54,586 nucleotides of DNA from IMG/VR virus record IMGVR_UViG_3300021376_000078, positions 1 to 54,586 of that record; one strand, given 5' to 3'. The stretch is from a virus. Of this stretch, positions 2,271 through 49,858 are shown one piece after another (position 1 is the stretch's first letter; each line of letters starts with the position of its first letter). The notes beneath the pieces were generated by a model that did not search any database, was not told the DNA's origin, and saw only the letters and a list, made by a program, of their open reading frames with translations. The translations under genes were made by a program, and so were the position numbers.

Positions 2271-2292
2271 TAAATATGTAAAAGATTTTTTA
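2271..2292 (-). promoter_or_regulatory. Possible late-type promoter element (CATATTTAT)
   Basis: The minus strand reads CATATTTATAG (box at 2271-2278), 46 bases upstream of the TTG start at 2225. No TTTG lies at the expected upstream distance; that region falls on the stop codon of the collagen-like gene. The call rests on similarity to other (T/C)ATATTTAT sites upstream of structural genes in this window. Confidence 0.35.
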
Positions 2293-12366: not shown

Positions 12367-12745
12367 GTATTTCTTTTTTTGCCCAATGCCACCCTTTCTT
12401 ATCACAGTATTGAGCATAGGTTGTTTTACTTCCTTTGTATAATTTTGCATTTGGATTTTGGAATACAAAACGAATGTCTATTTCTGGATATTGATCGAAT
12501 ATCAAATCAAATTTTAATCTGTCTGTTTTTACCCATCTACCCTTTGTTTCAATATACATTTTGTTGCCATCCGTTTTGTTTAGGACAAAATCTGGCGTAT
12601 AATTGTGTTTAGTTTCCGGTTGGATGTAGGATATTTTTTCACTTTCGTAGGAGAATGATTTACCATTTTCTTTAAGCATATCATTTACTATATCTTCTAA
12701 CCCACTACGAAATCCATGTTTTATTGCAACTTGATTTCTACGCAT
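12338..12745 (-). CDS. T7 gp3-type endonuclease I (Holliday junction resolvase), 135 aa
   Basis: The sequence follows phage T7 endonuclease I along its length: GFRSGLED, NYTPDFVL, YIETKGRW, DIRFVFQNPNAKLYKGSKTTY and a C-terminal IPEEWL. The catalytic set is preserved as E17, D52, E66 and K68 (E20, D55, E65 and K67 in T7). The family cleaves four-way junctions and branched DNA. T4-like phages normally use the unrelated gp49 (endonuclease VII), so this is an alternative resolvase in a T4-like background. It abuts the upstream structural gene (stop and start overlap in TAATG) and precedes the replication cassette. Confidence 0.95.
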   Translation of the reverse strand: MRRNQVAIKHGFRSGLEDIVNDMLKENGKSFSYESEKISYIQPETKHNYTPDFVLNKTDGNKMYIETKGRWVKTDRLKFDLIFDQYPEIDIRFVFQNPNAKLYKGSKTTYAQYCDKKGWHWAKKEIPEEWLKECL

Positions 12746-14619
12746 TAAATATCAAACCTTACAATAAAATTCATATCTACATCATCTCGTTTTGCTGTTG
12801 GATTTGCTAACTTTGCAATAGCAACTAATTCTTGATTATCATTATACAAACCAATTGTTGTTACATAAGGATTAAAATATGAACCAGTTACATAATCTTC
12901 TATTAAATGTGAATCACTATCTTTATCTTTTCGTATACTTGGATTTTGTGTAAAATTAAATTCATGTCTACGAATTTTACAAATAATTTCATGTTCATAA
13001 AATGTTACTTGTGATTTAAACTTACCTTCAAATCCATAATCTGTTGTATGATAATCAAAATTACCGTTTCTTCCAAGCAAAGCATTATTATATTTTGGTC
13101 TTGGATCAGCTATCGTTATTATACCTTCATTGTAAAACACATTACCAACACGTCTTGATTGATATGCATAACCATATTGATAATCATTATCATATAAATT
13201 TGCAATGTCATTTGAATTTAAAAATTTATTGTAAATTCTTACTTCATCCAAAACTCCGTGATAAGATGAAATATCTGTTCCATTTCCTGCAATATAAAAA
13301 TTACTATCATTTCTTGTTCCAGAAAGTGTTGGCAAATCTTGACTAATATCAAGATTTCCGTCTACCCATATTTGTAAACAACTTGCGGATTTTTGACAAA
13401 CAATATGATGCCAAGTTTGTGTAGATAATGCACTTGAACTAACTTCATTTATTCTATTTATTGATTTTTGTTTAAATAGTATTTTGTTTGGTTCTTCATG
13501 TGTATAATTTGTTAATGTTATATCAAATGGATATTGATTAATTGATTTTTTAGTTTCAACCGTTTCTATTTTATTTTTTACATTAACACCATCAACAGTA
13601 ATTTCAAATATATCAAAAGGATTATCTGATTTACTTCCTTGCACTAAATAATCTTTATATGTTACATAATTTTTTGTAAAAAGATTATTATATGTGTTTG
13701 TTGTATCTGATTGAGATACTGGAACATTTAACCAAAAACTAAATGCAAAATTTTCATTTCTTCCAAAATTAAATCTATTTTTTTCTTGAACATGAAAATA
13801 TGATCCGGTTAAATTTACAGAAATTCCAGAAGAGGCACTTACATCATTTAATGGTATTCCAGAGCTATATGATATTTTTTTAAAACTACTACTTACAATT
13901 TTTACATTATTTTCTCTAATAGAATAGTCAATTACATAGTCACTTCTTTTTTTACGAAAATCTCTTTCACGATATTTTTCGTTAAATCCAACATACAATA
14001 CTAAATTATTTTTGTCAATAATTTTTGTAGGATTAATAGATGTGTCTAATATATTACCATAACCATCATCTACTAATGTATAATTCAATGAAGACGTTGT
14101 TATATTAAAATGTTTTATTTCAATACTTTTTTTGTAAATACCTTCACCTATACATGATCTTGGTATAACAAGCATTGAACCGGACTCGGACAAAGATTTT
14201 TCTAAAGTATAATCCATAACATACGATGAAACTTTATCATTTTTATTATAGTCCGTATAGTAGTTATGATCTAAATAATACCATAATAATTTTGGATCTA
14301 AACTTTGAGATAAAAAAGGTCTTTGATATAATGATGATGAAATGTTTACAATGTTTCCAAAATACTTATGATTTTCTGGATATAAAAATCTATAAGGTTC
14401 AATTTTATTATTTGCATAATAATTTATACTGGAAGTATTTGTTGTAAATTCCCAAGTTTTTTTTACAGTAATAGGTCTAATTGTATAATCACCTGATTTT
14501 AGTCTTTTGAATACATAATTTGAACCGGCGCCATCAACCATAAATGGTTTATAGCCACTTCCAATTACAGGATTTAATGGAGGATTTTGGCGTTGGGGTG
14601 ATATATCAAGAGTTTCCAT
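12745..14619 (-). CDS. Virion protein with LamG-like lectin domain and shared C-terminal module, 624 aa
   Basis: Residues of about 270-490 form a concanavalin/LamG-type domain: FAFSFWLN near its start, TWHHIVCQKSASCLQIWVDG and LDEVRIYNKFLNSNDI near its end. The final roughly 100 residues carry the ending found in four neighbouring proteins (EFNFTQNPS, then TTIGLYNDNQELVAIAKL). The N-terminus (about 270 residues) is unique. It is the last member of the five-gene paralogue array in transcription order and lies 3 bases after the 977-residue gene. A carbohydrate-binding role at the tail tip or fibre is likely from the lectin fold, but the ligand cannot be read from sequence. Confidence 0.93.
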   Translation of the reverse strand: METLDISPQRQNPPLNPVIGSGYKPFMVDGAGSNYVFKRLKSGDYTIRPITVKKTWEFTTNTSSINYYANNKIEPYRFLYPENHKYFGNIVNISSSLYQRPFLSQSLDPKLLWYYLDHNYYTDYNKNDKVSSYVMDYTLEKSLSESGSMLVIPRSCIGEGIYKKSIEIKHFNITTSSLNYTLVDDGYGNILDTSINPTKIIDKNNLVLYVGFNEKYRERDFRKKRSDYVIDYSIRENNVKIVSSSFKKISYSSGIPLNDVSASSGISVNLTGSYFHVQEKNRFNFGRNENFAFSFWLNVPVSQSDTTNTYNNLFTKNYVTYKDYLVQGSKSDNPFDIFEITVDGVNVKNKIETVETKKSINQYPFDITLTNYTHEEPNKILFKQKSINRINEVSSSALSTQTWHHIVCQKSASCLQIWVDGNLDISQDLPTLSGTRNDSNFYIAGNGTDISSYHGVLDEVRIYNKFLNSNDIANLYDNDYQYGYAYQSRRVGNVFYNEGIITIADPRPKYNNALLGRNGNFDYHTTDYGFEGKFKSQVTFYEHEIICKIRRHEFNFTQNPSIRKDKDSDSHLIEDYVTGSYFNPYVTTIGLYNDNQELVAIAKLANPTAKRDDVDMNFIVRFDI

Positions 14620-14622
14620 TTT

Positions 14623-17556
14623 TTAAATTAACCTAACTCTAACTTGAAAAATATATTCAGTATTTCTATCTTTTCTTAATGGTCTATGTGTGTTTCCAAC
14701 GGCAACCAAATCCCCATTTCTATTGTATAATCCAACAGATGTTATGTATGTAAATGGTGTAAGTATTTGAAAATTCTTTAAAGAACCACTATCATTTGTA
14801 TATGTATAATTATTTGTATAATTAAATTCATTACCTTGAACACGGCAAACATAAGTCTCTCTCATGTATTCTTCGGTAGACCTACCAAACCATGAACCAC
14901 TTGTTGTTCTCATTGGATTAGGAGAACATGAACCACTAATAGATAATAATAATTTTCTACTGTTATCACCATCAATTGATGCAGTAACAGTATTAAATGA
15001 ACATGATTGATCCATCATTGTTCCATCTAATACTATAACGCCATTTTTTGGAAAAACTATACCCCATGCTTCTTTGTTATTATCATCATATGCACCTTCT
15101 TGAATTGATCCTGATATTAAATAATAATGGTCTTGTATGTAATTTACAATACTTTCACTTTCATCAACATCATTACTATCATCAATTAGAGTATAGATTT
15201 GACCACTTGTATAATCTACTTGGAAGTTACTTCCCGTGTTTATTAATTGATTTGAACTTGATGAAAGTGGACAAAATGTAATTTGTATATTACCTGGATC
15301 AATTCTATCTTTAATATCGTCTCTATTAAATTCAATAACATAAATATAATCGGATGTTTTACCATCTTTAAACTTAAATTTACCTTCGGTTGTTCCCATA
15401 TATTCTAGCATATATTTTCGATAAATACTTTTTGATGGCAGAATGTCTATGTCATCTACAATATAACTTGATCCAGAACCATCGGTATGACCAAATGCTA
15501 AATCAAATCTATGGTATGCATTTGAGTTTGTTGGTGGTGTATCGTAAACGGGAATAAAATATTTTGAATGACTAACACTCGTAGAACCAGTATAAAATGT
15601 AGATATTTTTTCTCCACTACATCTAAACAATCCTCTTGTTTTTAATAGTTTTATTGATTTAAAATAATCATTTGCTTTTGATATTCCTTTAAAAATATAA
15701 GGAGGATCTGGAAACCAATCTTCTGCTATATCCAAATCAATAAATGGATCAGGTTGTACAATAGGTGGTTTTGACGAGTTTGTTCCAACATCATTGATTT
15801 GATCACCACCGTATCTAAATCCTTCAATTATACCAAATCTATCATAATCCGCCATAAACCCAATAGGAAAACCAACTATTGGCGGATAACCTCTAAATTT
15901 TGTAAAATCTATGTATCTTTTTAATAAATTTAATATCAGTATGTTTATTGTTTTCCAATCAACATCTAATTTTTCTAATCCCGTCAATGCATTTTCTATC
16001 AAAATAGACATTGCAGAATGTTCTTCATCGTTTGTTACAATTTCTATATTATTTCTTCTAAAATTTATATCCCATATTTGTGTAAACATTTGTGAAGAAA
16101 CGATATTATTTACTAATACTTGATCAGTTATGTTTGGTCTATTTCTATAAACTTGTCTTGAGGCCAATGCGGGTATAACAGTAAGTCTTAACCAACTTAA
16201 TAAATCTATTCTGTTTGCTGTACCGGTTGGATTTTCTTTTTGATAATCAAAATCAACCAACTGACCATAGGTTTGTATTGCATTTCTGTTGTCAATAAAT
16301 GTTGTTGGATCAAATGTATTTGCACCAGATGTTATTACGTCTAATGAAAATCTTTGATCAACTACTGATGGTCTTGTTGCACCTGCCGGTAAAATTGCCA
16401 AATTATATTTAAATTCTGTATCTATTACTGGCATAAATGGAACAGAATTTGGAGTTGCATTTGAGAAAAATTCAATTATATTATCAAGTATTTCGTCTTT
16501 TACTAAAAATACAAATCTTGCATGTATTTGACTTTTCCATAAATCTTCATAATATTCATCAACAACATCCTTGTAAGATCCATCTACATTTTTTGGCCAA
16601 CCAGAAAATAAAGGAACATGACTTAATGCCAATTCATTTGGATAATTTTCCTGTTCTATCCATAAACATTCTAAATCATACAAAAAATCTTTTGAAATTT
16701 TTGTTTCTTTTTCAAGAAATGATAAACTTTCTGCATTCAAAAAACCAATCTTATATGTAAAATTTTGATATTTTCTATCAGTACCATCTAATTTTAACTT
16801 TGGAGAAAATGGCATTAAATGATATATGTTTACAAGTTCTTGTGGTGGAGTGTTTTTTGCAATACCTGCATTGTATTGTTCTGACATTTGGTTTAATACA
16901 ATTTTTGTATCATCTGCATTTGCCGTTAGTATATTTTTTGACGAAGCAAAAAATACTTCAATGTTAGTGGGTACATTAACTGTTAATTTATCAAGTTTTC
17001 CATCTATTCGATTTACATTAAAAGTAAACGTTCTTGTGGTTGATAATGCAAACTGATTTGCAGTTCTGTGAATGTTTAATACTCTAACAGTTCTACCAAG
17101 CAAAACAAGATTATCACCATTTTTGATTGCACCAATATATCCAACATCCATAGCTTCAAATTCACTTGGAGTTGGTTTAGTTTGTGCTGCACTTAATGTC
17201 CATTGTCCAATAGTTGTACTTGCTATACCAGGACTAATTATCAATATCAATGACCTAAAATTTTCAAATAAAGGATTTTTTTTGTAAAGGTCATTCCATT
17301 CAGTTACATATGTGGGAATTGTTGATCTTAACCATTTTTCAAAAGGATCCTTTCCACCTTTTTTGATATAATTGTTGATATAATCTTTTACAGTAAGAGC
17401 AATTTTACTTATTAAAGTAAATTCATCTAATGCAAGAGGATTTGTAATTCTACCACTTATATTATTACCAGAAATCAATATACTGGTTGCTTCTTTATTA
17501 TTCAATGCAACTTTGTAGGCATTTACTATAATTTGTTGTTGAGAACTTAATGCCAT
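14623..17556 (-). CDS. Large virion/baseplate-associated protein with shared C-terminal module, 977 aa
   Basis: The N-terminal roughly 640 residues look like a structural assembly protein, with helical stretches such as LISKIALTVKDYINNY and a proline-rich linker around residues 615-645. The C-terminal roughly 330 residues match the module that makes up almost all of the 361- and 372-residue neighbours. Shared landmarks are YVIEFNRDDIKDRIDPGN, YYLISGS, WGIVFPKNGVIVLDG, EFNYTNN and TSVGLYNRNGDLVAVG. It lies in a tight operon (gaps of 3 and 17 bases). No enzymatic motif was recognised. A large baseplate-periphery or fibre-attachment protein is the best inference. Confidence 0.93.
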   Translation of the reverse strand: MALSSQQQIIVNAYKVALNNKEATSILISGNNISGRITNPLALDEFTLISKIALTVKDYINNYIKKGGKDPFEKWLRSTIPTYVTEWNDLYKKNPLFENFRSLILIISPGIASTTIGQWTLSAAQTKPTPSEFEAMDVGYIGAIKNGDNLVLLGRTVRVLNIHRTANQFALSTTRTFTFNVNRIDGKLDKLTVNVPTNIEVFFASSKNILTANADDTKIVLNQMSEQYNAGIAKNTPPQELVNIYHLMPFSPKLKLDGTDRKYQNFTYKIGFLNAESLSFLEKETKISKDFLYDLECLWIEQENYPNELALSHVPLFSGWPKNVDGSYKDVVDEYYEDLWKSQIHARFVFLVKDEILDNIIEFFSNATPNSVPFMPVIDTEFKYNLAILPAGATRPSVVDQRFSLDVITSGANTFDPTTFIDNRNAIQTYGQLVDFDYQKENPTGTANRIDLLSWLRLTVIPALASRQVYRNRPNITDQVLVNNIVSSQMFTQIWDINFRRNNIEIVTNDEEHSAMSILIENALTGLEKLDVDWKTINILILNLLKRYIDFTKFRGYPPIVGFPIGFMADYDRFGIIEGFRYGGDQINDVGTNSSKPPIVQPDPFIDLDIAEDWFPDPPYIFKGISKANDYFKSIKLLKTRGLFRCSGEKISTFYTGSTSVSHSKYFIPVYDTPPTNSNAYHRFDLAFGHTDGSGSSYIVDDIDILPSKSIYRKYMLEYMGTTEGKFKFKDGKTSDYIYVIEFNRDDIKDRIDPGNIQITFCPLSSSSNQLINTGSNFQVDYTSGQIYTLIDDSNDVDESESIVNYIQDHYYLISGSIQEGAYDDNNKEAWGIVFPKNGVIVLDGTMMDQSCSFNTVTASIDGDNSRKLLLSISGSCSPNPMRTTSGSWFGRSTEEYMRETYVCRVQGNEFNYTNNYTYTNDSGSLKNFQILTPFTYITSVGLYNRNGDLVAVGNTHRPLRKDRNTEYIFQVRVRLI

Positions 17557-17573
17557 AACTTCACTTTATATTA

Positions 17574-20411
17574 TTACCAATGTAGACGTATTTTTATCAA
17601 TAAATCAACATTTGGTGTTTTCATTAAAGGTTTACTTAATTTTGCAATAGCAAGCAATTCTCTACTGTTATTATACAATCCAATAGTTGTAATAAATGTA
17701 ATAGGATCATTTTTAAAACAATCATAACGAATAAGTCCAGTTGTTTGATTTGTTGGATTTTCTAATACAAATGTAGGATTATTACTGTAATTTGCCATAT
17801 TAGCAGAAACACGAATAAAATAATGATTTGTTGTTTTATTGTTTATATTTCTTGCTTTCATTGGATAATTTAAATCCGATGCACCAACAATAGATTTATA
17901 CAACTTGAATGCATTATCACCGGCTATATTACTACCAGTTACACTATTAAATGAAAGTTCTTCATTTAATTTTTTTGCATCCAAAATAATTAAACCAGAA
18001 TTTGGATAAACAATACCATATGTTTTAAATGTTGCATTTGTTTCTTCCGTTCCAAGTCCTGTTGAATGAGCACCATCTGCAAGACTACCACTTATTAAAT
18101 AATAATAAACATCACCATATTCATTTGTACAACTAATTTCTTCGGTTAAATCATTTGAATTATCAATAAATGTTAAAACTTTATTGGATGAACTTACTTG
18201 TACATTACTACCAGTATGGATATTATTGGCATAAGAATTTCCACTTAATTCACTTAATCCTATTTCAAAATTACCTGGATCAAGTTTATTTACAATTGCA
18301 TCTCTATTGAAATTAATAATATAAATTTCATCCGATAATGATACAGTAGCATTTGTATAAAAACTAAATTGTTTTTCTGGTGGATCCAAAGAAATTAATC
18401 TTGCCTGTGAATATATTGCTCTTGTTGGTGAGTCATTTGATTCATATCCAGACATTTTTGAACCAGAACCGTTGTAATGACCATAAGCAACACCAAAATA
18501 ATTTATTAAATCACATTCTTCACAATCAGTTATTTGATAATAGTATTCTTTTGATGAGGTAGATTGTAATGAACTTGTTGCATAACAAGTTAATGATTGT
18601 TTGTCATTGAACAAACCTCGTATAACTTTTGTTTCTCTACCAGTTAATACATCTTTTGTATCAATTAATCCATTGTATACTCTAATTGGATTGTCTAAAC
18701 AATGTGCAGATTTATTTCTTCTTTTAACTTTTATTCCTGGACCTAATCCACTAAAATTTTCTTTGGATAAAATTCTTAATCCAGGAAGTTTATATCCACC
18801 AGGAGTAGTATAATCTGGATATTTTATGTAACATTTTGAAGCATGAATTTCAAAACAACCACATGGATCACTTGGATCAACATATGGTTCTTCATCATTA
18901 CATTCTTCTTTTCCTATACATCCAGGAAATAGTGGTTTACCTGTACTATCAAATGCAGGACGTACATCAAGAAAATCTATTTCTACTACACTGGCTTGTG
19001 AACTTTCTGGTATAAAATTATCATCAACCCATTTTTCATAACGAACTGGATCTTTTCCAGGACAATTTTTTGTTACAATAATTTTTCTTTCATTAGCAAT
19101 AAACCTTAATCTTCTTCTAATTCTACCCTCATAACAAGGTTGATCTGGAACTATTGTATACATATTTTCAGTTGAATATTCATCAACATAAATAAGATCA
19201 CCATTTGATCCTACTTTTTGACGCCTTTCTACTGTTGGTTGTTCAACTTCAACGCAATCATTGATGTCATCTCCACCACAAATACATTCGCCTTTACCTC
19301 TACATCCAGATGGATATGCATTTTCAATTCTTCTAGCTTGAGCATCATCATCGGTATTTATATTGTAATTAAACTCTGCACTATTTTGTATACCAGATTT
19401 ACTTAATCTTTGAATTTGACCGGCAAGACCACTATAAACAGAAACACTTTCGTATAATCTAAAATTTTTACCACTTGAATCTTTTGTTCGCATCATTATT
19501 TTATCAATGTACGAACCTCTACTATTATCAAATGGATTATCTACACCACTTCCTATTGGAATACAGGGTTGATCTGAAAATGCAAATCTAACATTTACTT
19601 TTGCATTAATACCAGTTCCAACACCAGACATTATTAATTCTATTATTCCCTTTCCAGAAATTGTTTGAGACCATGGAATTAAATTTCCATTTCCGTCTAA
19701 CGTTTTCCATTCTTGATATGCTCCTATATCAGACATATCATACCATGATTGCCAAACTGGTCTTCTACAAGTTGCTAATTGTGTTTTTTCATCAAGAGGT
19801 CCACAATCTTCATAGTAATATGATAATATAGACTCAGCAAGAACTATTCCAGAATAAGCAATTCCAGTTTTTGTTTCCCTTCTTCCACTTCCAGCACGTG
19901 TTAAATCACCACCAAAATCTGCAATACAACAATAATATAAGTCCGCAACTAATCTACATCTTTTTACACCTGGCTCACGTAAAAATGAAAAATCTTCATT
20001 TGTTACATCACCATATTTTATATCAACTTGTTCTTCTCGTATATTACCCAAAGATAATATAATAGATCCACCTAGAGTATTAGCACAATCAGTTAAAAAC
20101 AAATTAGTTGTGGTTGGTAAATCCCCTCTTGTTGTTGGGGTATTATCTTTTAAATTTTTTAAAAGTGTAAGATCTCCAGTTATCAGTTTATTATTTAATT
20201 GTAAATAATCTTTAATGCCGGTTACAAATGCACCTGGATCTGATAATAATGTACTTTTTTGAAGTATACCATTTAATATAGAATATATTGTTTGTGCAGC
20301 AGTTGAATTACCATTTCTTTCATAATAATCTATTGCATCAAAATATCCTCTTAAATCAGCAAGTGTAAGCGATCTATAATCATCATCGGTAACTGGTGTT
20401 TTTAAACTCAT
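17574..20411 (-). CDS. Large virion protein with Cys-rich centre and shared C-terminal module, 945 aa
   Basis: The protein has about two dozen cysteines, many in the middle third (for example GECICGG, CIGKEEC and CGCFEIHASKC). This suggests disulphides or bound metal and is unusual for its neighbours. The last roughly 330 residues belong to the shared module: FGVAYGHYNGSGSKM, IINFNRDAIVNKLDPGNFEI, YYLISGSLADG, TTIGLYNNSRELLAIAKLSK. The N-terminal part is helical (LADLRGYFDAIDYYE). It sits between two other members of the family with short gaps. A virion surface protein is likely; the function of the Cys-rich part is unknown. Confidence 0.93.
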   Translation of the reverse strand: MSLKTPVTDDDYRSLTLADLRGYFDAIDYYERNGNSTAAQTIYSILNGILQKSTLLSDPGAFVTGIKDYLQLNNKLITGDLTLLKNLKDNTPTTRGDLPTTTNLFLTDCANTLGGSIILSLGNIREEQVDIKYGDVTNEDFSFLREPGVKRCRLVADLYYCCIADFGGDLTRAGSGRRETKTGIAYSGIVLAESILSYYYEDCGPLDEKTQLATCRRPVWQSWYDMSDIGAYQEWKTLDGNGNLIPWSQTISGKGIIELIMSGVGTGINAKVNVRFAFSDQPCIPIGSGVDNPFDNSRGSYIDKIMMRTKDSSGKNFRLYESVSVYSGLAGQIQRLSKSGIQNSAEFNYNINTDDDAQARRIENAYPSGCRGKGECICGGDDINDCVEVEQPTVERRQKVGSNGDLIYVDEYSTENMYTIVPDQPCYEGRIRRRLRFIANERKIIVTKNCPGKDPVRYEKWVDDNFIPESSQASVVEIDFLDVRPAFDSTGKPLFPGCIGKEECNDEEPYVDPSDPCGCFEIHASKCYIKYPDYTTPGGYKLPGLRILSKENFSGLGPGIKVKRRNKSAHCLDNPIRVYNGLIDTKDVLTGRETKVIRGLFNDKQSLTCYATSSLQSTSSKEYYYQITDCEECDLINYFGVAYGHYNGSGSKMSGYESNDSPTRAIYSQARLISLDPPEKQFSFYTNATVSLSDEIYIINFNRDAIVNKLDPGNFEIGLSELSGNSYANNIHTGSNVQVSSSNKVLTFIDNSNDLTEEISCTNEYGDVYYYLISGSLADGAHSTGLGTEETNATFKTYGIVYPNSGLIILDAKKLNEELSFNSVTGSNIAGDNAFKLYKSIVGASDLNYPMKARNINNKTTNHYFIRVSANMANYSNNPTFVLENPTNQTTGLIRYDCFKNDPITFITTIGLYNNSRELLAIAKLSKPLMKTPNVDLLIKIRLHW

Positions 20412-20425
20412 TTAAATAACTCTTA

Positions 20426-21511
20426 TTAGTAATCTAACTTAATTTTGAAAATCGATTCATGGTCAAACGTATTTTTAATCGGTTGACTCAATTTAGCAAC
20501 AGCAAGTAAATTTTCTGCATCATCATACATACCAATTGTTGTAATAAATGTTTCTGGATTACCAGCTGTTCCCATTGATGGACCCATTGTAGGATGTTTT
20601 AATTGACCGTAATTGAGAGTATTTCCTGCATAAAAACTTGGATTATTACTATAATTGTATTCATTCCAACGAACTCTTGCGAAATAATATAAAGAAGAAA
20701 TTACTTCGTTTGTTCTTCCTTGAAAGTATAAACCGTTTGATGTAGCTCCCTGCATAGACGTAACTAATCTTTTATGATTAAATGTTCCACTTCCGGTATC
20801 TGGTGCTCTATTTGTATCAAAAGAACAAGAAACATCTAATGCTTTACCATTTAATACAAATATTCCATTGTCTGGATAAAATAATCCCCATGGAGTTTGA
20901 TCCTCTGAATAAATACCATCAATTATACTACCACTTACTATTCTATATTGTCTGCCACCTTGACCATTTAATTCCGTAGTAGTTCCAGAGGAATTGTCAA
21001 TCAATGTGGTCATACTGGCAGTTGGGTTTACTGAACCGGTGTGATCCAATGAAGCCAATGAGAATTGCCAATTTCCCGTGTCAATTCTATCCTTAAATCT
21101 TGCGGTGTTTACATTTATTACATAAACATAATTGGAACTTTCTTCTGTTGGTTCACCATCATTGAATGTAAAAATATCTATACCAACAGGCAATAGTAAT
21201 TGTGCATATTGGGAATAATTTGTTTTTGTTGGTCTAATATAAAGATCTGTTCCCAAAGATCCAGTTGATGATCCACTTGAGTCATAATCACAATAAGCAA
21301 TAGAAAATTGACTTTCTGCACCTTCAACATTGGATTGACTATTGAAACATTCAATATAATATTCTTGTTGTGTTATATTTTGAGTAGAACTTGTATGAAT
21401 AGCTGTTAATGCCGCCTGTCCATTGGACCAAAGAGGAGCAGTAACTACTTCTCTTTGATCCGGATGAATGTCAGTATCTTCATTAAATTGTTTGTAGATA
21501 TAATTTGTCAT
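20426..21511 (-). CDS. Virion protein consisting almost only of the shared module, 361 aa
   Basis: After a short head (TNYIYKQFNEDT) the protein has the module landmarks in order: QFSIAYCDYDSSGSSTG, YVINVNTARFKDRIDTGNW, RIVSGSIIDGIYS, WGLFYPDNGIFVLNG, EYNYSNNPSF and TTIGMYDDAENLLAVAKLSQP. It is close in length and order of motifs to the adjacent 372-residue protein, so the two are tandem duplicates that have diverged. No catalytic residues are evident. It probably forms a repeated part of the baseplate or fibre array. Confidence 0.93.
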   Translation of the reverse strand: MTNYIYKQFNEDTDIHPDQREVVTAPLWSNGQAALTAIHTSSTQNITQQEYYIECFNSQSNVEGAESQFSIAYCDYDSSGSSTGSLGTDLYIRPTKTNYSQYAQLLLPVGIDIFTFNDGEPTEESSNYVYVINVNTARFKDRIDTGNWQFSLASLDHTGSVNPTASMTTLIDNSSGTTTELNGQGGRQYRIVSGSIIDGIYSEDQTPWGLFYPDNGIFVLNGKALDVSCSFDTNRAPDTGSGTFNHKRLVTSMQGATSNGLYFQGRTNEVISSLYYFARVRWNEYNYSNNPSFYAGNTLNYGQLKHPTMGPSMGTAGNPETFITTIGMYDDAENLLAVAKLSQPIKNTFDHESIFKIKLDY

Positions 21512-21528
21512 AACTTAATACTCTTATT

Positions 21529-22647
21529 TTAATATACTAATCTTACTGTGATTATCAATTCCGAATTTGGTGATTTAATTATTGGTTGACTCAATTTGCC
21601 AACAGCAATTAATTCCGCAGGTTGTTGATTATTATACAAACCAATTGATGTTATGTATGTATACGGAGATTCTACAAACATTTGATGTCTAATTTTTCCT
21701 TTGGATGATTGATCTTGTGATCCTGTAACATACGTTGGGTTATTAGAGTAATTAAATTCTGTATTACGAACACGAATAAACACATAATGTGTATTTCTTA
21801 CATCAACTGCTCTAGCAGTAAAACCAACTGTTTTATTTGAAGCGGCACCACTTATTGATGTAAATATTTTATATGAATTATCACCATATAATGAGCTACT
21901 ACCAACTGTATTAAATGAAGCAGAAACATCTAATGCGTCTGCATCCAAAAGAATAACACCTCTATCAGGATAAACTACACCATAATAATGTGGATCATCA
22001 CTATTGTGAATACCATTTAATAGAGTTCCACTAACTATATTTTTTGGAACAGATGTAGTATCACTAAATTCCAAAAAATTAGAAGAATCATTTGAGTCAT
22101 CAATTAAAGATATTACTTTTTTAGACGAACTTACTTGAACATTACTACCAGTAAATACATTGTTGGCATAAGCACCGCCATTTAATTCTGCCAAATTTAT
22201 TTCAAAATTACCTGGATCAAGTTTATCACCAAATTTATCTTGGTTAATGTTTATTACGTAAAAATGTTTTATTTCTTTTTTGAAACCATTTAATCCACTA
22301 ATATAAATCCCTTCTTCATCACCATCAAGACATGATAATTTGTATTGAGAATATATTGCCCGTGAAGGTGTATCGTTTATTTCACCACCTTCATTTTTTG
22401 ATCCAGAGCCAGCAATATGACCATATGCTACAGAAAACATACGTTCATCATCACATTCAAGTGATGCAGAAGACCATACTTCATAATAGTATCTTTTAGA
22501 CGAAGTTCCTTGTAAAGAACTTGTATAAAAATTTAACAATTCTGCAACACCATTTTCACTATTCCACAAACCTCTTGTATAAATTGATTTGAGGTTTGTA
22601 CCGAGAGTATCTGTTATTGCGGTATTTTCAACCTGACTAAATATCAT
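21529..22647 (-). CDS. Virion protein consisting almost only of the shared module, 372 aa
   Basis: The landmarks FSVAYGHIAGSGSKNEG, FYVININQDKFGDKLDPGNF, GVVYPDRGVILLDADALDVS, EFNYSNNPTY and TSIGLYNNQQPAELIAVGKL are present in order. It is the most upstream member of the five-protein family and follows the 213-residue protein. The 945-residue neighbour shares the longest stretches with it, including PGNFEI and YANN-x-(F/I)-HTGSNVQVSSS-like sequence. The role is inferred to be structural; no enzyme motif was seen. Confidence 0.93.
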   Translation of the reverse strand: MIFSQVENTAITDTLGTNLKSIYTRGLWNSENGVAELLNFYTSSLQGTSSKRYYYEVWSSASLECDDERMFSVAYGHIAGSGSKNEGGEINDTPSRAIYSQYKLSCLDGDEEGIYISGLNGFKKEIKHFYVININQDKFGDKLDPGNFEINLAELNGGAYANNVFTGSNVQVSSSKKVISLIDDSNDSSNFLEFSDTTSVPKNIVSGTLLNGIHNSDDPHYYGVVYPDRGVILLDADALDVSASFNTVGSSSLYGDNSYKIFTSISGAASNKTVGFTARAVDVRNTHYVFIRVRNTEFNYSNNPTYVTGSQDQSSKGKIRHQMFVESPYTYITSIGLYNNQQPAELIAVGKLSQPIIKSPNSELIITVRLVY

Positions 22648-22694: not shown

Positions 22695-23336
22695 TTATGT
22701 AGCTGGTATAATGGTAACTGGAACTACTAATCTTGCACCAGTATCATTACCAGAAATAATTAATTTTGTTCTTTTTGTAGAACTAAAAACAACTGGTGTT
22801 CGTGGAATAATTACAGTATTTGTTCCAGAAAATGTTACCGATTTTCCTATACCAGGATCAGCAACATTTGAAAATCTAACATAAGTGTTATCTAATAATG
22901 TAAAAGTATATGATGAATTTAATTGAGTTTCTTTTACACCAGCATTTCCAACTTGCAAAGTTTGTGGATTTATTGCCTGTTGGATTGATGTACCAACTGT
23001 TTGTCCAGAAGCAATTTCAAATGTAATTTCTTCTTTATTTTCCAACAATTTAAGATATGGAATTGAAATTTGTCCTCTATCCATTGTTACCAATTTATAT
23101 TTTAGTGCCTGTGTTTCATCAGTAATTGCTTCCGTAACTGGCATATTTTCTATGACTGTACCAAAGTAATCAATACCGAGTGGGTGAGAAACATTCCACA
23201 AATCATAATCAACTTCATCATCTGCAAGTGCAAATTGTGTAATGTTGAACTGACTTCTACCTTTTGCTAACAATTCACGACCTTTTTTTGTTAATTTTGC
23301 ATCAATCGTAACTGTTTGATTATTCAAATAACCCAT
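22695..23336 (-). CDS. Conserved phage structural protein, 213 aa
   Basis: The ATG follows AGGAGT by a standard distance. The N-terminus (MGYLNNQTVTIDAKLTKKG, RELLAKG, NITQFALADDEVDYDLW) is a pattern I recall as widely conserved in tail/baseplate loci of environmental T4-like phages. The C-terminal half is beta-rich (SVTFSGTNTVIIPRTPVVF). It begins the paralogue-array operon and has its own putative promoter at 23376-23407. It may be a connector between the large upstream tail protein and the module proteins; the precise function is unknown. Confidence 0.92.
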   Translation of the reverse strand: MGYLNNQTVTIDAKLTKKGRELLAKGRSQFNITQFALADDEVDYDLWNVSHPLGIDYFGTVIENMPVTEAITDETQALKYKLVTMDRGQISIPYLKLLENKEEITFEIASGQTVGTSIQQAINPQTLQVGNAGVKETQLNSSYTFTLLDNTYVRFSNVADPGIGKSVTFSGTNTVIIPRTPVVFSSTKRTKLIISGNDTGARLVVPVTIIPAT

Positions 23337-23433: not shown

Positions 23434-26400
23434 TTAATCGTCCCTATTCAGTGTCAAATGCGGCAAATTAAATAAATCAGGTGGACAAGGCCTTTCAGCA
23501 CAAATTGCCGTGTTTATTATTGCCGGTTGTGATATAAATGGTTTTGATGCATCAACAAAATTTAATGCCTCAGATTGATTTTTTGATCCTTCAAAATTTC
23601 TACGTCTAGTTCCAGCCGGTAAATTTGCAGGATTTGTATATGGTGCACTTTTAATAATAAATTGTGAAAACATATTTTCACTTGCACTTATTGCTGTAGA
23701 ATAAATTGGAGCAAAAATTTTGTAATAATCATCACGTCTTGATGATGTAATTGGAACAATAAGTGCTTGTCTTATTGGTTTTATACTATTTCTATAATTC
23801 CATTTAGGACCATATCCAAGATTTTGTTGTAATGTTGCATCTGGATAAATACTTATTTTATTATACGAAACTACAAATGAAGCCGATGGTAATGAACCTG
23901 CGTAAATTTTATTTAATGTTGAAACAAATTTTAATTTTTCAAAAATACTTGTATTTAATTGATTGTATTTTGATAACAATTTTATTTTTGTTTCATCAAG
24001 TAAAGATAAGTATTGTCTGTAATCTATTTTTGTTTCTGGTTTTAAATTCAAATCATCAACTTTTTGAATTTTACTACTATTATTTAATATGTAGGCAAAT
24101 GTTTTTATATCGTGTTCACCCAACAAATCATCTTTATTTCCTTCCAAATCAAAATTTAAATCAATATCATTGTTTGATAAACCAACATTAATATCTTGTG
24201 ATTTACGCACTACTGTATCAAATCCAATGTATATTGTTGTTACTTTTTTTTCTAAATTTGCACTTGGATCAGGTAATGTGTCTAAATCTGGAGTTTCTTT
24301 TACAAATTTATCTCTACTTTCACCTTCAATTCCACGCAAAGCAGCAACTTTTGAACGTTCCAATACATTTGGTTCAACAACTAAACCCAGTATTGGATTT
24401 GCCCTTGCGGGTAAAGTTTGCCGTATTTGTTCAAATAAACTAAAATCATATATGGATATTAAATTTATGTAAGCAGTAAAATCGTTTTTATTTGGATATT
24501 TTTGCCAATACTCACTAGCAAACCATTTTAATTTTGGGTATTCATTTTTGTACATATCATCATAATACCCAAAATAATCGTCTATTGTTGTATAACCTAT
24601 TGCCTCATATATGTCTTCATTTATTATATGTTGTGGTGAAAATGCAACCATTAATTTATTTGAATCAACGGGTGATTCATCAAACATTGAAATTTCAGTA
24701 GAAACATATGGGTGTATACCTGCATACAAAGAACCCGAATCAATCCTTGTTTTTTGTGCATAAGGTGTATCACCAGCAGTTGAAGGAACTTCCATAGAAT
24801 ATACTTCATATATTGGTTCCCATGAAGATGAATTAAATCCATGAAAAGTTGCTTTTTTGGAAGAACTATAAAAAGTATTTTTCTTTTGATCAGGATGGCT
24901 ACTATCTAAACTTTTTGTAACACTAGCATCAAATTTCTGCCAAAATTTCCATTGAGCTTGTAAATCATAAAATGAAGAAGTTGGAGTGTTACCATTATAT
25001 GACCTAGCAGAAAGAACATGATTATTAAAAGATCCAGTTGATAATGGTCTTGACCAATATCTTAACTCAAATACAGATCCAGATAAAATATCTGTGGTTT
25101 CTGAATTAGATCCTGATCCTATAAATAAAACTCCGTCTCTTGTCCATCGTTCATTGTAACTTCCACTAATACTACCACTAACTACAATTGAAGCGGATGC
25201 TTCAACAGCAATTTTTCCATATTTATTTGTTTTTAATACTAAATCATACACTTGATTTGAAGATGTTTGATCATTTCTCAAACTTCGTCTAATCATCAAA
25301 TTTAATGGTATGTTGTCATACAAATATTGATCGGTTATGGAAGCAGTTGCATATCCAGTGCCATTTCCTAAATAAAAATAAACACTACCTCTTTCACTTT
25401 CAGTTGAGTCTTTACTTACAACAACAAACCAATCAACATTACTTCCAGAATTTTTTTGCAATAATGTTTGAGTTGGACTTAAACCATATCCATAACTTTT
25501 TTCAGGTTCCATTCTCCAACGAAATGTTAGTGTATCAGGATATGTCCATTCACCAACATCATTATTTACACGTTCCCAAGGAACACTTACATGATGTTGT
25601 CTTGTTGGGAGTGGATAAGTACCGGCAAAATTTAAAAAATATGTTGATTTTTCAAAATCAGCTCTAGGGATTATTCCAAAATCTGCAATATCAGGACCGC
25701 CAAACTCACGTATACTTAACATTGTTTGTGGTATACCATAAGCAGAAAGCAATGCTTTTATTCCTCTAGCAGTTCCTTTTGTTTTGTAAATATATGGAAG
25801 ATTATTAAGTATTCTACGCCATACTTCTTTTGTTCTTTCTTCATCACTTAATGTGTCATATCTATTTGTTAATGTTTTTCCAGTCCAAATTGGTTCACCA
25901 CTTCCACTTAATCCTAATGCATATTCCCAAAGGTCTTTTGCTTGAGTACCATGTGTTAATGTCCAACCTAAATTTTGTGTTACATTATACACTAAATCTT
26001 GTGATAATCCGTCTTTTGGATTTTCTATTCTTGTATTTTTCTTTGTTATGTGATCGGTATACAAATACATTATATCAAAATGTTGTCCAATCATATTAAC
26101 AAAAGAAACATATGCAGAATTTTCATTATCAATTGAAATTTCTTCTGGTATAGTTCTATTCAATGAATTAAAGTTTTTCATGTCAAAATCGGTTGCTTTA
26201 TCTAACAAATCTTCATACCAATCTATGAATACGTTAGATTTTACATCGTATAATTTATACTTTCCGAATTTTGTATTAATATCAAAATTACTACTACTTA
26301 CTTCATATTTTGGATATGGTGTAATTGAAGCAGTTGTTTGAAATGTATAATTGTAACTACCGCTTAAATCATAATACAACCATTTTTCAAATTCATCAAA

Positions 26401-27534
26401 ACCACCTAAAACTTTATTTTTTAAATTTCGTATATTAACTTTATTATTCACAAATGATGCAGAAAAAGAACCTGTTATATTAAAACTAGGATTCCAAGCG
26501 CCATGAGAAAGAGATCCAGTAAATGATCCACTATAACTTTCTATTATTGATAATTGTGTATCATACGTTTGAATTAAATTTACTTTATATGCAAAGTTTT
26601 TAACTCTTTCTTCAGCAGATGAATAAAATATAAAATTTGTAAATTCTGTAAAATCTAAATTTAATTTTACAGTAGAACCAGAATCAAAAATGTATCTGTT
26701 TAGTATTTCTTGTGATGTTGCTACATTTGTAGATAATAAGTCTGTCCAAGATTTATAGTCTGTTTCCGATATTGTCCAATAATTTGTTTCAACATCAAAA
26801 TTTGGTCCCGCTATTTTATTTGTTGGTAATACAACTTCTGGCTGTTCAACTGAAATTATTTCTAAATATGGTTTTATTATTTCACTACCAACCCAACATT
26901 CGTAGAATAATTCTATTGTGTCTGGTAATTCTTCATACAATTTAACATAAAAACTAGTTGTACTTCCGTCTGATGTTAGATTTATGACGCTAACAATTTG
27001 ATTTTCACCAAAGTTTAAAATAATAGGTGGTAAATATTTTTTTGGAGATAGATAATCTAGAACAAATGTTTTTAATTGTTCTAGCATAATTGGATTTTCT
27101 GGTTCAGATAATGATAATTTTAATTCTGTTCTATCCGAAGAAATTTCAGAAATAAACATTTTTGATCCATAAGCGGATCCTATAAAATTTCTAAAGAAAT
27201 TGTATACTACTCTGTATGTTGATGGACTTAAATCTAATACTTCAAGATCTTTATGTATATCAAGTTGTATTTGTAAATTATTTGTTTCTGGTGTATTATC
27301 TATTGTCCATGTATCTATGTCATATATTGATAACAAATGCACTGTATTGATATTAAATACATGCATTTCTATTGATTCAAAACCACCGGTAATTCTATCC
27401 GTAGTATTTGGATTTATTTTATCAAAACGCGGAATAATTCTACGAGTTTGGGCTGTATCAAGTAATCTAATCCCTCTCGTAAAACCTTTTGTTGATAAAA
27501 TTTCGTTTATATTTTTGTAACCAAATTTTGACAT
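23434..27534 (-). CDS. Giant tail/baseplate protein with P2 gpI-like segment and lectin-like domain, 1366 aa
   Basis: A segment near residues 560-630 (EVWRRILNNLPYIYKTKG, TARGIKALLSAYGIP) resembles the core of P2-type tail protein I and related baseplate proteins. It is followed by a concanavalin-like domain (about residues 650-870) with GVLFIGSGS and SVFELRYWSRPLSTGSFNNH. The N-terminal roughly 550 residues are beta-rich. The C-terminal tail ends with a short Cys/Pro motif (CAERPCPP). Its position after the gp6- and gp25-like genes supports a baseplate-periphery role, possibly linking the wedge to fibres. It is the third-largest virion gene here. Confidence 0.93.
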   Translation of the reverse strand: MSKFGYKNINEILSTKGFTRGIRLLDTAQTRRIIPRFDKINPNTTDRITGGFESIEMHVFNINTVHLLSIYDIDTWTIDNTPETNNLQIQLDIHKDLEVLDLSPSTYRVVYNFFRNFIGSAYGSKMFISEISSDRTELKLSLSEPENPIMLEQLKTFVLDYLSPKKYLPPIILNFGENQIVSVINLTSDGSTTSFYVKLYEELPDTIELFYECWVGSEIIKPYLEIISVEQPEVVLPTNKIAGPNFDVETNYWTISETDYKSWTDLLSTNVATSQEILNRYIFDSGSTVKLNLDFTEFTNFIFYSSAEERVKNFAYKVNLIQTYDTQLSIIESYSGSFTGSLSHGAWNPSFNITGSFSASFVNNKVNIRNLKNKVLGGFDEFEKWLYYDLSGSYNYTFQTTASITPYPKYEVSSSNFDINTKFGKYKLYDVKSNVFIDWYEDLLDKATDFDMKNFNSLNRTIPEEISIDNENSAYVSFVNMIGQHFDIMYLYTDHITKKNTRIENPKDGLSQDLVYNVTQNLGWTLTHGTQAKDLWEYALGLSGSGEPIWTGKTLTNRYDTLSDEERTKEVWRRILNNLPYIYKTKGTARGIKALLSAYGIPQTMLSIREFGGPDIADFGIIPRADFEKSTYFLNFAGTYPLPTRQHHVSVPWERVNNDVGEWTYPDTLTFRWRMEPEKSYGYGLSPTQTLLQKNSGSNVDWFVVVSKDSTESERGSVYFYLGNGTGYATASITDQYLYDNIPLNLMIRRSLRNDQTSSNQVYDLVLKTNKYGKIAVEASASIVVSGSISGSYNERWTRDGVLFIGSGSNSETTDILSGSVFELRYWSRPLSTGSFNNHVLSARSYNGNTPTSSFYDLQAQWKFWQKFDASVTKSLDSSHPDQKKNTFYSSSKKATFHGFNSSSWEPIYEVYSMEVPSTAGDTPYAQKTRIDSGSLYAGIHPYVSTEISMFDESPVDSNKLMVAFSPQHIINEDIYEAIGYTTIDDYFGYYDDMYKNEYPKLKWFASEYWQKYPNKNDFTAYINLISIYDFSLFEQIRQTLPARANPILGLVVEPNVLERSKVAALRGIEGESRDKFVKETPDLDTLPDPSANLEKKVTTIYIGFDTVVRKSQDINVGLSNNDIDLNFDLEGNKDDLLGEHDIKTFAYILNNSSKIQKVDDLNLKPETKIDYRQYLSLLDETKIKLLSKYNQLNTSIFEKLKFVSTLNKIYAGSLPSASFVVSYNKISIYPDATLQQNLGYGPKWNYRNSIKPIRQALIVPITSSRRDDYYKIFAPIYSTAISASENMFSQFIIKSAPYTNPANLPAGTRRRNFEGSKNQSEALNFVDASKPFISQPAIINTAICAERPCPPDLFNLPHLTLNRDD

Positions 27535-27989: not shown

Positions 27990-29158
27990 CTTGTTACCTT
28001 AAAATAATAATTGTTATCAAAAATTTTTACAACGTCACCACCGTTTTCTTCAACTTTTACAACTATTCTATAAAATCTTTCTGGTTGAAATGAGTTCATC
28101 CATATGTTAAAATAATTACCTTCTGAATCACAACTAATTTTTGATCCTGTTACATCAAATGGTAGTATTACTTCATCTGTATATGCATCTCTTACTTCAT
28201 AATATGAAGAAGATGGTAAATAATAATTTACTATGTGGTATGATTGTGTTGTATAATTTTTTTCTGGATATCTTTTATTTGCATATATTCTTATTTTTGC
28301 TTTTTCTTTTTCTGCATAAAATTTTTTTAATTTTACATTTATTGATAAATTATCAAAGTTTGCAGATAATAAACTTCCAGTGGTAAATGATTGGTCGTCC
28401 CAAACTACATTAAGTCTTGGAACATAAATTGTATTACTATCTGTACCAAAAAATTTTAAACTATTTAATGGATCCAATGATGTTTCTTGTTCTGCACTAA
28501 ATTTTAATATAAATCCATCATTTACTATTTTTCCAGATCCAGTTACCCATTTTTTTACAATATCGGTAACATCCATGTATAAATCTGCAGTTTCAAAACT
28601 GTAATTTTGTACACATTCCAAGTTATCGTAATCCCACCATGTTCCACCGCCTTTTTTATTGTAATATGATGATGTAACATTTGCAGATAAATTTGAACCA
28701 AATAATACGGCAGCATCAACCCATGTTTGTGAAATATTATCCCATTCAAATGAAGATGTTGCAGGTGGTATTTCCCATTCAGTACCCGTATTCATTGATG
28801 TTCTATATTTCCAAGAAGCACCATCTTTTGTTATGGGAACATGATTATATTTTCCAGTACCATTTATCCAAGAACTGCTTAAAGGATACGCATATATTGA
28901 GTATTCTTGTGGAATTTCTCTTGCATCTGCTGAACGTAAAGATAAATAATATTTAGCATTTTGTGAAATTTTACCAGCATTTATGTTTTGTTCAATTTCA
29001 GTTACATCAAATTTAATCAATATCCGGCTATTATACAATGATCCAGTTATATTTTTGTATTCATGTTTTAGTTCAAGTATTGAATCAATACCGCTATTTA
29101 AATTTACACTTTCTTCGTATAATGTTGTATCTTTAACTGGATATATTGAGTATATCAT
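27986..29158 (-). CDS. Virion protein with DNRLRE-like N-terminal domain, 390 aa
   Basis: The N-terminus (KDTTLYEESVNLNSGIDSIL, then SRILIKFDVTEI) resembles the DNRLRE beta-sandwich found in secreted bacterial proteins, where a short DT-x-(L/V) head precedes a (L/I)-x-F-D strand. Around residues 190-215 a second landmark (LYMDVTDIVKKWVTGSGK) is also typical of that family. The rest is beta-rich with no catalytic motif. It directly follows the gp6-like gene, so it is probably a baseplate or fibre-attachment protein. The DNRLRE relation is tentative. Confidence 0.9.
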   Translation of the reverse strand: MIYSIYPVKDTTLYEESVNLNSGIDSILELKHEYKNITGSLYNSRILIKFDVTEIEQNINAGKISQNAKYYLSLRSADAREIPQEYSIYAYPLSSSWINGTGKYNHVPITKDGASWKYRTSMNTGTEWEIPPATSSFEWDNISQTWVDAAVLFGSNLSANVTSSYYNKKGGGTWWDYDNLECVQNYSFETADLYMDVTDIVKKWVTGSGKIVNDGFILKFSAEQETSLDPLNSLKFFGTDSNTIYVPRLNVVWDDQSFTTGSLLSANFDNLSINVKLKKFYAEKEKAKIRIYANKRYPEKNYTTQSYHIVNYYLPSSSYYEVRDAYTDEVILPFDVTGSKISCDSEGNYFNIWMNSFQPERFYRIVVKVEENGGDVVKIFDNNYYFKVTR

Positions 29159-31074
29159 TAGAACGCCCTCACTCTACCAAGAATATCATTATCTGGATAT
29201 TTGATTTCAAATATAGATGGATCAAGCGATGGGAATATTATACCATTTTTTGTTGCACTATCTAAATCATAAACATTTTTTGAATAACCCAATGCCTGAT
29301 CATACAAATTTTTAAATTTTACATTTACAACAGTTTGAACTCCCTCAACTCTGTCCAATTCTGTAAATACATTACTAATAACAATAGGTTGATTAATTTG
29401 CCATCTTTTTATATCAAAATATTGTTTTAATTTATCTATACATTTTAATATAACTTCATTTCCATTTTGATTTGGCAAAGTTATTATGTCAAATTCAATT
29501 CCAATGTTTATTACATATGCATCTTTTATTTCAATAGCATCGGTAAGTATTCTATATTCGCTAAGATATGTTTTTATATTTTCTTTTGTAGCAGTATTTA
29601 CTTTTGCTAATTTATGGTTTGAATCATAACCTAAAACATAAAATCCTAATGCTAAATTATTTTGTCTTCTATCGCTGTAAAATACATCGTCATAAGTTAA
29701 TTGTGTATTTCTTGTTACATAAGCTTTTGCAATAGAACCGTATTTTTGTGGCATACTATAAGCACGTATTATGTAATCTTCTTTTGTTACTGCTCGATTT
29801 TGTGATGCAAAATAAGAAAGTGCATTTTGTCTTATTTCATTTATATCTTCCTCATTTTTACCGCCATTTGCAGGTTCAGGATTTGTTACAGCAAGACTAC
29901 CTATAACTTGGTTGTAAAGAGTTTGATCTAAACCAGTTTTATCAAGTATTATTTTTCTTTGTCCAATTTGTGTAATTGTATCAGCAGGAACATTATCATT
30001 AATACCACCACCAGATGTGTAACATATTGTTAATTGAGTATTACTTGGTGCTAATCCATAAGTTTTTGTTCTTAAAAAATTTGAAGGATCTATATCCAAA
30101 GAAGGAGATGTTTCTATACCGGTTACAGAATTTCCAACTAAATCGGGATTAGGTATAAATTCTTCATCAACAACATTTGCCAATCCAGGACCAAACATTA
30201 TTTCATGCCTACCATTTGAACCAAATTTTACAGTAAATTTTCTTGTTATTTTTTTTAATTTTAACAAATAAGGAGTTTCATTTCTAAATGTACTTAATTC
30301 TTTATCATTTCTTGGTATATTTGGAACTGCCTCATATATTGTATCTTGTGCAAGATAAGGAACATAATGCCATGTATTACCTTCTTTATCAGTTGCATAT
30401 AAAAATTCTATAGCATTTGGATCTTCTATTACAACTTTATCATATTTTTTTGGTTCAAGAAAATTAAATTCTTGTTTTACAATTTTTCCAGAAACGGCAT
30501 TAACTTGTTTTTTTAATAACCAAAAAGTAATTTCACCGGTTATATCATCAATTTCAAATGGTGTAATTTCTGTTGGACTGAAACTACCACTATACTTAAA
30601 ATCTAAATACTCCGTTGTTCTAAAAACTGCGTTTTCAGTAATGTTACTATTTGATCCATCGGTTGGCAGATCTGAAATAAGTATCATTCCGGGTTCTATT
30701 GCAAATGCGTATGACATATCTGGAACAATTTCTGTACCAGATGTTTTTGATGGAACTAACTGAAATACATCTATTTTTGCATTAGCCGATGAATTTAATT
30801 TTGGCATATACCCAAGAGACTGTGCTAAGTTAAATATATTTCTTTTTTCTGATGCATGTAATATCATTGATTCTTGTAAATTCACATCAGTATAAAAAGA
30901 AAGTACATCACCAACATAAGCAGCCATTTCCATAAACATCATACCAGGAGATGCTTCATTAAAATCTTGGTAAGTATCTGGAAAATAATTTTTTGCAAAA
31001 TCAATAAGATTTGTTTTTAATGAATTAAAATCTCTTGAAAGATAACGAACATCCTTTTTAATCAAATCTGCCAT
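29158..31074 (-). CDS. 6: Baseplate wedge protein, T4 gp6-like (baseplate J family), 638 aa
   Basis: The N-terminus KDVRYLSRDFNSLKTNLIDF, followed by FPDTYQDFNEASPGMMFMEM and YVGDVLSFYTDVNLQES, is a hallmark of T4-type gp6. The central region has the REHY-like assembly part (AVTKEDYIIRAYSMPQKYGS). The C-terminus (INQPIVISNVFTELDRVEGV) matches the wedge-dimer region. In T4, gp6 forms the continuous ring of the baseplate inner part with gp7 and gp53 and drives sheath contraction. It overlaps the gp25-like start by 1 base, the usual gp25-gp6 order. Confidence 0.96.
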   Translation of the reverse strand: MADLIKKDVRYLSRDFNSLKTNLIDFAKNYFPDTYQDFNEASPGMMFMEMAAYVGDVLSFYTDVNLQESMILHASEKRNIFNLAQSLGYMPKLNSSANAKIDVFQLVPSKTSGTEIVPDMSYAFAIEPGMILISDLPTDGSNSNITENAVFRTTEYLDFKYSGSFSPTEITPFEIDDITGEITFWLLKKQVNAVSGKIVKQEFNFLEPKKYDKVVIEDPNAIEFLYATDKEGNTWHYVPYLAQDTIYEAVPNIPRNDKELSTFRNETPYLLKLKKITRKFTVKFGSNGRHEIMFGPGLANVVDEEFIPNPDLVGNSVTGIETSPSLDIDPSNFLRTKTYGLAPSNTQLTICYTSGGGINDNVPADTITQIGQRKIILDKTGLDQTLYNQVIGSLAVTNPEPANGGKNEEDINEIRQNALSYFASQNRAVTKEDYIIRAYSMPQKYGSIAKAYVTRNTQLTYDDVFYSDRRQNNLALGFYVLGYDSNHKLAKVNTATKENIKTYLSEYRILTDAIEIKDAYVINIGIEFDIITLPNQNGNEVILKCIDKLKQYFDIKRWQINQPIVISNVFTELDRVEGVQTVVNVKFKNLYDQALGYSKNVYDLDSATKNGIIFPSLDPSIFEIKYPDNDILGRVRAF

Positions 31075-49765: not shown

Positions 49766-49785
49766 AATGAACCACTTTTCTAAAA

Positions 49786-49813
49786 ATAGTGTGGGGGTTC
49801 GCTTCCACACTAT
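49786..49813 (+). terminator. Hairpin between MoxR and VWA genes
   Basis: A perfect 9-bp stem (49786-49794 with 49805-49813) with a 10-base loop lies 20 bases after the MoxR stop. No T run follows, so it may attenuate or stabilise rather than terminate. A TATATTTA box (49816-49823) follows, without a clear TTTG upstream. Confidence 0.5.
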
Positions 49814-49858
49814 GTTATATTTATACAAACAACCAATAACAACCATAAGGGATATGTA

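Follow-up and report, generated by a model that had tools for sequence, protein, structure and literature searches.

A tandem gene array built on one shared protein module, a probable baseplate-periphery set of Far-T4-type phages

The gp10, gp11 and gp12 proteins of bacteriophage T4 are encoded by consecutive genes and have a common primordial fold, as a passage of PMC3004832 describes. By analogy, they offer the closest parallel to a baseplate periphery that expanded through duplication, and we compare with them a run of five open reading frames (ORFs) in the 54,586-nucleotide IMG/VR virus record IMGVR_UViG_3300021376_000078, the whole of which is called the window here. The five ORFs lie on the minus strand, as do all features located below unless marked (+), and form a single run between the gene of a 213-residue protein (p213) and a block encoding an endonuclease, a primase and SbcCD. 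In gene order they occupy slots 1 to 5 and encode A372, B361, C945, D977 and E624. Both sets appear to be adjacent late baseplate-periphery genes with one ancestral fold and decoration by inserted loops; however, the likeness among the T4 proteins is visible in structures only, whereas that among the array proteins is plain in sequence, extends to five copies (up to seven in relatives) and includes a nested lectin. We propose that the array is a paralogous baseplate-periphery set of a contractile phage of the Far-T4 type, in which a common module anchors each protein on the rim and variable adhesins are displayed. We hold this reading to be probable, though by no means assured.

The module constitutes the entire protein in A372 (slot 1; 21529..22647; 372 residues), and B361 (slot 2; 20426..21511; 361 residues) is likewise a bare module. 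In C945 (slot 3; ORF 17574-20411; 945 residues) it forms the C-terminus (residues 578-945; 17577..18680) behind a Cys-rich domain (residues 1-577; 18681..20411), and in D977 (slot 4; ORF 14623-17556; 977 residues) it again forms the C-terminus (residues 619-977; 14626..15702) behind an N-terminal domain (residues 1-618; 15703..17556). Both C-terminal modules were assigned by homology to A372, profile search and landmarks. E624 (slot 5; ORF 12745-14619; 624 residues) carries the module in two parts. A preliminary description of this stretch, made from its sequence alone, had given these coordinates and lengths exactly, and its claims of a common module, of two bare copies and of an origin by tandem duplication are all borne out here. 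When the record was searched with A372, C945 was matched at 1.7e-84, D977 at 2.1e-51, B361 at 1.7e-44 and E624 at 1.5e-8; the last match covers just the final ~85 residues, and E624 was recovered at 3e-15 by a profile built from the four full modules. Scores of this range across the paralogues indicate that the shared end is real, well beyond chance, and we conclude from sequence comparison that the five array proteins are paralogues of common descent.

The module is beta-rich and about 300-360 residues long. Those of B361, C945 and D977 are 34-44% identical to A372, and identity to A372 spans 33-55% across 16 aligned copies. Ordered landmarks had been described for all five proteins. In the first four they occur in order (DPGN or DTGN, SG(S/T), (Y/W)G..(Y/F)P and a GLYN..AVAK-type motif). 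E624 clearly has GLYN..AIAKL and EFNFTQNPS but lacks DPGN and YYLISGS in the form described, their positions being taken by the diverged GEGIYKKSI and LVDDGYGN. We term the module F-type as found in slots 1-4 and C-type (or E-type) as found in slot 5; the F-type model comprises 98 rows (4 from the window and 94 of the 135 relatives listed) and the E-type model 54 (1 from the window and 53 of the 58 listed). In all 161 F-type proteins, the module reaches to within 14 residues of the C-terminus. No Pfam or PHROG model covers the module in the 98 F-type members scanned, nor does any NCBIfam model in the five window proteins. A PDB sequence search with the module returned nothing at E < 0.05; its sole match, a caspase-3 stretch at E 0.09, was taken as chance. 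A Foldseek search of the PDB with the B361 model (AlphaFold2; pLDDT 87.5, pTM 0.80) gave no match at E <= 0.001 (best E 0.36), and the 11 matches at E <= 0.001 in BFVD, a library of predicted viral structures, carried no named function beyond LamG/ConA-like.

In E624 the module is divided by a LamG/ConA-like lectin (residues about 198-486; 13162..14028) into an N-half (residues 34-197; 14029..14520), placed by the structure model, profile alignments and landmarks, and a C-half (residues 487-624; 12748..13161), which is related to the F-type C-half at P 1e-24 in a profile-profile comparison (hhalign). The lectin matches Pfam PF13385 (Laminin_G_3) at 5.5e-13, with 49.8 bits against a cut-off of 27.6, and its jelly-roll fold aligns with solved ConA-like domains at Z 22.2 over 206 residues and 2.5 A; it differs from that family in being housed within a different domain. 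A profile of E-type residues 33-205 is colinear with the F-type N-half at P 2.8e-4, compared with 0.14-0.55 for three mismatched comparisons. Two of the five proteins were modelled, B361 and E624 (pLDDT 84.6), and their agreement was read from predicted strand order and profile alignments; the strands on either side of LamG, which spans about 197-481 in the E624 model, are ordered as in B361. Differing folds among the five ends, which the preliminary description had named as grounds for rejecting its reading, were thus not seen in the two proteins modelled.

Relatives of E624 show the same arrangement. The E-type N-half profile matches 77 of the 78 C-type proteins but none of the 161 F-type proteins, the LamG profile matches 70 of the former and again none of the latter, and the order N-half, LamG, C-half holds in 69 of the 69 C-types that carry both. 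The eight LamG-free C-types have 285-407 residues, a length that leaves room for little or nothing beyond the module; they align with columns 118-357 of the F-type profile at P 1.3e-25 and end to end with the LamG-bearing profile at P 1e-52. On these alignments the lectin of E624 is a guest that splits the module, and by our own reading of the landmarks the insertion point is a single loop, which corresponds to the stretch between B361 residues 196 and 207. The preliminary description had placed three modules behind unrelated N-terminal domains, the lectin among them; this is correct for C945 and D977, but the lectin of E624 is internal. On a tree of 41 rows (all eight bare forms, the window and roughly every second one of the remaining rows), the bare and LamG labels require two changes. 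The lectin copy would probably bind a glycan of the host surface.

Among 50,697 phage records, 7 contain the module: Mel-JY01, four immuto records, LR756508 and RM378. In IMG/VR, a relative is encoded by at least 583 stretches (583 of the first 600 pattern matches), and a scan of bacterial and archaeal genomes gave five loci, all in metagenome-assembled or uncultured-bacterium records; E-values of the related-locus searches apply to the candidate stretches only. The T4 and P-SSM2 genomes contain no module match at E <= 1. Counted over whole genomes, the Microcystis phage Mel-JY01 encodes five module proteins in the same five-gene order (WWT39513-WWT39517), the Flavobacterium phage immuto two (immuto35A_164 and _165) and the Rhodothermus phage RM378 one (Rm378p128), all of the same family and all annotated as hypothetical proteins; LR756508, a record without annotation, encodes two, its F-type match falling in two pieces. 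We found no publication on Mel-JY01 and, in our literature searches, no publication title on the module, and the name immuto is absent from the accessible part of the Flavobacterium phage paper PMC7077304.

Copy number forms a graded series. Of 96 loci, 64 hold two module ORFs, 14 hold five, 10 hold one, 4 hold three, 2 hold four and 2 hold seven, these numbers being lower bounds because many loci are cut by contig ends; three of the loci counted as two (L012, L013 and L024) represent the beginning of a longer array. Near-copies exist among the loci, L010 having lengths and scores identical to those of the window. The two seven-copy loci (L060, IMG/VR 3300046010_009507; L061, 3300046009_006318) consist of consecutive F-type modules on long branches, and since the L060 contig stops just past the seventh module, a C-type gene may lie beyond it. 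The capsid gene gp23 is present in 7 of 10 carrier records, and in a gp23 tree the seven, RM378 included, fall on one side of a branch with 100/100 support, opposite T4, ValKK3, P-SSM2 and S-ShM2. A section of PMC4360716 treats RM378 as the reference for the Far-T4 group. The gp23-bearing carriers thus group with RM378 in the Far-T4 lineage. The window has no gp23 match, but its 54,586 bases may be a fragment, so that its own assignment to this lineage rests on synteny.

A tree of F-type modules (108 of 148; L010, L013 and identical module sequences were omitted, and every third two-copy locus was kept) resolves every array slot as its own lineage of 14-17 rows. Slot 1 modules form a single 17-row clade (support 99), and slot 2 modules a single clade (98), which joins the F-type modules of two-gene loci in a group of 50 rows (97). 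Slot 3 modules lie inside a 17-row clade (100) with the module of L087 and copy 1 of L074, and those of slot 4 inside a 15-row clade (99) with copy 2 of L074. In nearly all two-gene loci, the C-type protein is matched by the N-terminal part of slot 5. Slots 2 and 5 are therefore the counterparts of the two-gene form, and slots 1, 3 and 4 are additional copies. The three-copy loci (L025, L027 and L057) and the seven-copy loci are expansions outside the slot clades. In a tree of p213 (86 rows), the 17 array-bearing rows fall on one side of a branch with support of only 80.

The preliminary description had also invoked domain swapping between the proteins. We reject this, as the slot lineages, with support of 98-100, keep each slot apart, no row of the 108-module tree shows a module transferred between slots, and the N-terminal domains change within a slot. 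The history of the array is instead one of duplication together with rapid divergence of N-terminal domains within slots. Tandem duplication would have carried a single module, as in RM378, or a pair of one F-type and one C-type, to three, five and seven copies, with the step from one copy to two presumably in that direction.

The module and the domains attached to it are conserved to different degrees. Across nine pairs of arrays, slot 3 modules are 62-91% identical, whereas the N-terminal domains of that slot are 27-52% identical in eight pairs and 81% in the ninth, the window with L011, where the module stands at 91%. The clearest case is L014 with L023 (module 82%, N-terminal domain 29%), and L018 with L020 gives 85% and 52%. 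Slot 4 shows the same direction, and in slot 5 the identity of LamG is below that of both flanks in 5 of 7 pairs. N-terminal domains of relatives range from 275 to 1009 residues in slot 3 and from 61 to 619 in slot 4; those of slot 3 contain 9-19 Cys, with 19 in the 572 residues analysed of the fast-evolving domain of C945. The N-terminal domains of C945 and D977 have no Pfam, PHROG or NCBIfam match, and homology between the two is unsupported (P 0.92). Separately, the slot 3 N-terminal domains of L021 and L022 show Ig-like matches (Cep192/ASH/HYDIN-type) below the Pfam cut-off.

Because the module is conserved, C-terminal and stands alone in two slots, it is best read as a common anchor, and if the module is the anchor, the N-terminal domains and LamG are the displayed parts. 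The synteny of the array with genes for a gp25-like baseplate wedge protein (31074..31604; PHROG 5.2e-11) and a gp6-like one (29158..31074; PHROG 5.9e-22) would place the products in the tail tip. There the module would fold, associate with its paralogues or with the gp6/gp25 wedge, and retain the protein on the baseplate rim. Outward parts would be added in two ways, N-terminally in slots 3 and 4, whose domains are probably further adhesins, or as the loop-inserted LamG of slot 5, and the bare copies of slots 1 and 2 may act as adaptors that occupy equivalent positions. The N-terminal domain of P2 gpH, which presumably attaches the P2 tail fibre to the baseplate, points the same way. It has in common with the module C-half a GLYDD..LIAVAN hairpin of 22-25 columns, and when the two C-half profiles were compared with 120 non-module ORFs, each gave P2 gpH as its best match (P 6.9e-4 and 1.7e-4). 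The hairpin is N-terminal in gpH but C-terminal in the module, and the remainder cannot be aligned; gpH relatives from viral contigs were mutually too close for a useful profile.

The opposite orientation would make the module the host-facing end, a tip for receptor binding or trimerisation, and leave docking to the N-terminal domains, the plan of most tail fibres. It would accord with the fact that every F-type protein has its module at the C-terminus and with the insertion of a lectin into the module end in 70 of 78 C-types. Fibre tips usually lie at the C-terminus. We nevertheless consider this arrangement unlikely, since conserved modules with divergent N-terminal domains are the reverse of what a receptor-binding tip would lead one to expect, and the module-only A372 and B361 would be left without an anchor.

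A second alternative holds that the F-type modules are remote orthologues of T4 gp8 that have expanded into a family. Among the structural neighbours of B361, T4 gp8 ranks first (Z 5.3, 3.3 A, 81 of 361 residues). In fourth place (Z 4.1) comes the KP1 baseplate chain 9f4a_A4; we take this chain to be KP1 gp8, although its entry is titled simply after the baseplate cup and tail. Each of the two aligns with B361 C-terminus to C-terminus. T4 gp8 and the module are alike in size and in a weakly similar C-terminal beta-sandwich core, and a passage of PMC2993671 counts gp8 among the T4 core genes. T4, however, has one gp8 gene, and the Z scores lie below the background level stated for the tool. Membership of the gp8 family found no profile support, with P 0.11 or worse against gp8 alignments of 43 and 129 rows, compared with 4e-10 for gp6, the positive control of the T4 profile comparison. 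We regard gp8 orthology as quite doubtful. Kinship of the module or its upstream neighbours with T4 gp6, gp7, gp9-gp12 and wac likewise found no profile support, except that the gp6-like protein matched gp6, and gp10, gp11 and gp12 gave P 0.027 or worse against profiles of the whole module, its N-half and its C-half. That the array proteins are assembly factors or non-structural proteins outside the virion is highly improbable, for although a literature search found no proteomic evidence for any member, the LamG and Cys-rich domains, the lengths and the gene position from wedge to replication genes fit tail-tip proteins.

Several points weigh against the reading of the module as a rim anchor. 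The designation as virion proteins rests on synteny, and fibres usually attach through their N-terminus, opposite to the orientation proposed here. A trimerisation or folding core would predict conservation of the module equally well. The contrast in conservation is small in L021 with L022 (62 versus 45% in slot 3 and 57 versus 44% in slot 4), and in 2 of 7 slot 5 pairs LamG is at least as conserved as the N-half (L021 with L022, 52 versus 45%; L026 with L030, 50 versus 47%). In 8 of 77 complete C-type proteins, 16-93 residues follow the module. The gp8 match is weak, and at a Z below 8 the resemblance may amount to no more than a common arrangement; the profile comparison of module and gp8 finds nothing, Foldseek finds no solved relative, and the similarity to P2 gpH is limited to its 22-25 columns.

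In loci that are long enough, genes for gp25, gp6, p390, p1366 and p213 precede the array, and those for the endonuclease, primase and SbcCD follow it. In the window p213 (22695..23336) lies directly upstream of the array, and the large conserved gene p1366 (23434..27534) lies upstream of p213. A p213 homologue is present in 91 of the 96 loci listed, and RM378 has two p213-like genes that flank its single module gene. The family sequence reads LTKKGRELLAKG...FALADDEVDY and has no PHROG or NCBIfam match; p213 may be a partner of the module.

Elsewhere in the window, a 1059-residue ORF (7623-10802) fuses SbcD-like (PHROG, residues 16-346) and SbcC-like (266-1058) parts, and homologues of this fusion, of about 1046-1074 residues, recur downstream of the array in many relatives. 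A 1773-residue protein (2290-7611) has many collagen-like and tail-fibre PHROG matches, with up to 15 stretches per family. The window also encodes a PHROG 8420 endonuclease (41137-42042; 4.8e-56), which we take to be of the UV-damage endonuclease type, and the FAD-dependent thymidylate synthase ThyX (43562-44227; TIGR02170, 3e-48). At 48818-51979 (+), an AAA ATPase that matches GvpN and CobS models is followed by a 706-residue protein, which may be its partner.

What appears to be new, as far as sequence can tell, is a Far-T4 protein family without a library model that has a nested lectin and a lineage-specific expansion. In the one literature library searched, we found no publication naming both "Far-T4" and "baseplate". 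The array occupies the position of the T4 peripheral-baseplate genes, which makes it a concrete candidate for that missing machinery. It is conceivable, and we suggest it only tentatively, that Far-T4 phages exchanged the T4 peripheral baseplate (gp7-gp12) in its entirety for an independent rim of module copies, that the number of module genes (1, 2, 3, 5 or 7) sets the kinds of adhesin, and that new adhesins arise when a domain is inserted into or fused to a spare module. The finding provides candidate machinery in a widespread aquatic lineage, for a protein of which Pfam, PHROGs and NCBIfam hold no model. The LamG-free relatives show the gain or loss of a lectin inside a structural domain, and, thanks to the graded series of copy numbers, growth of a baseplate by duplication can be put to the test.

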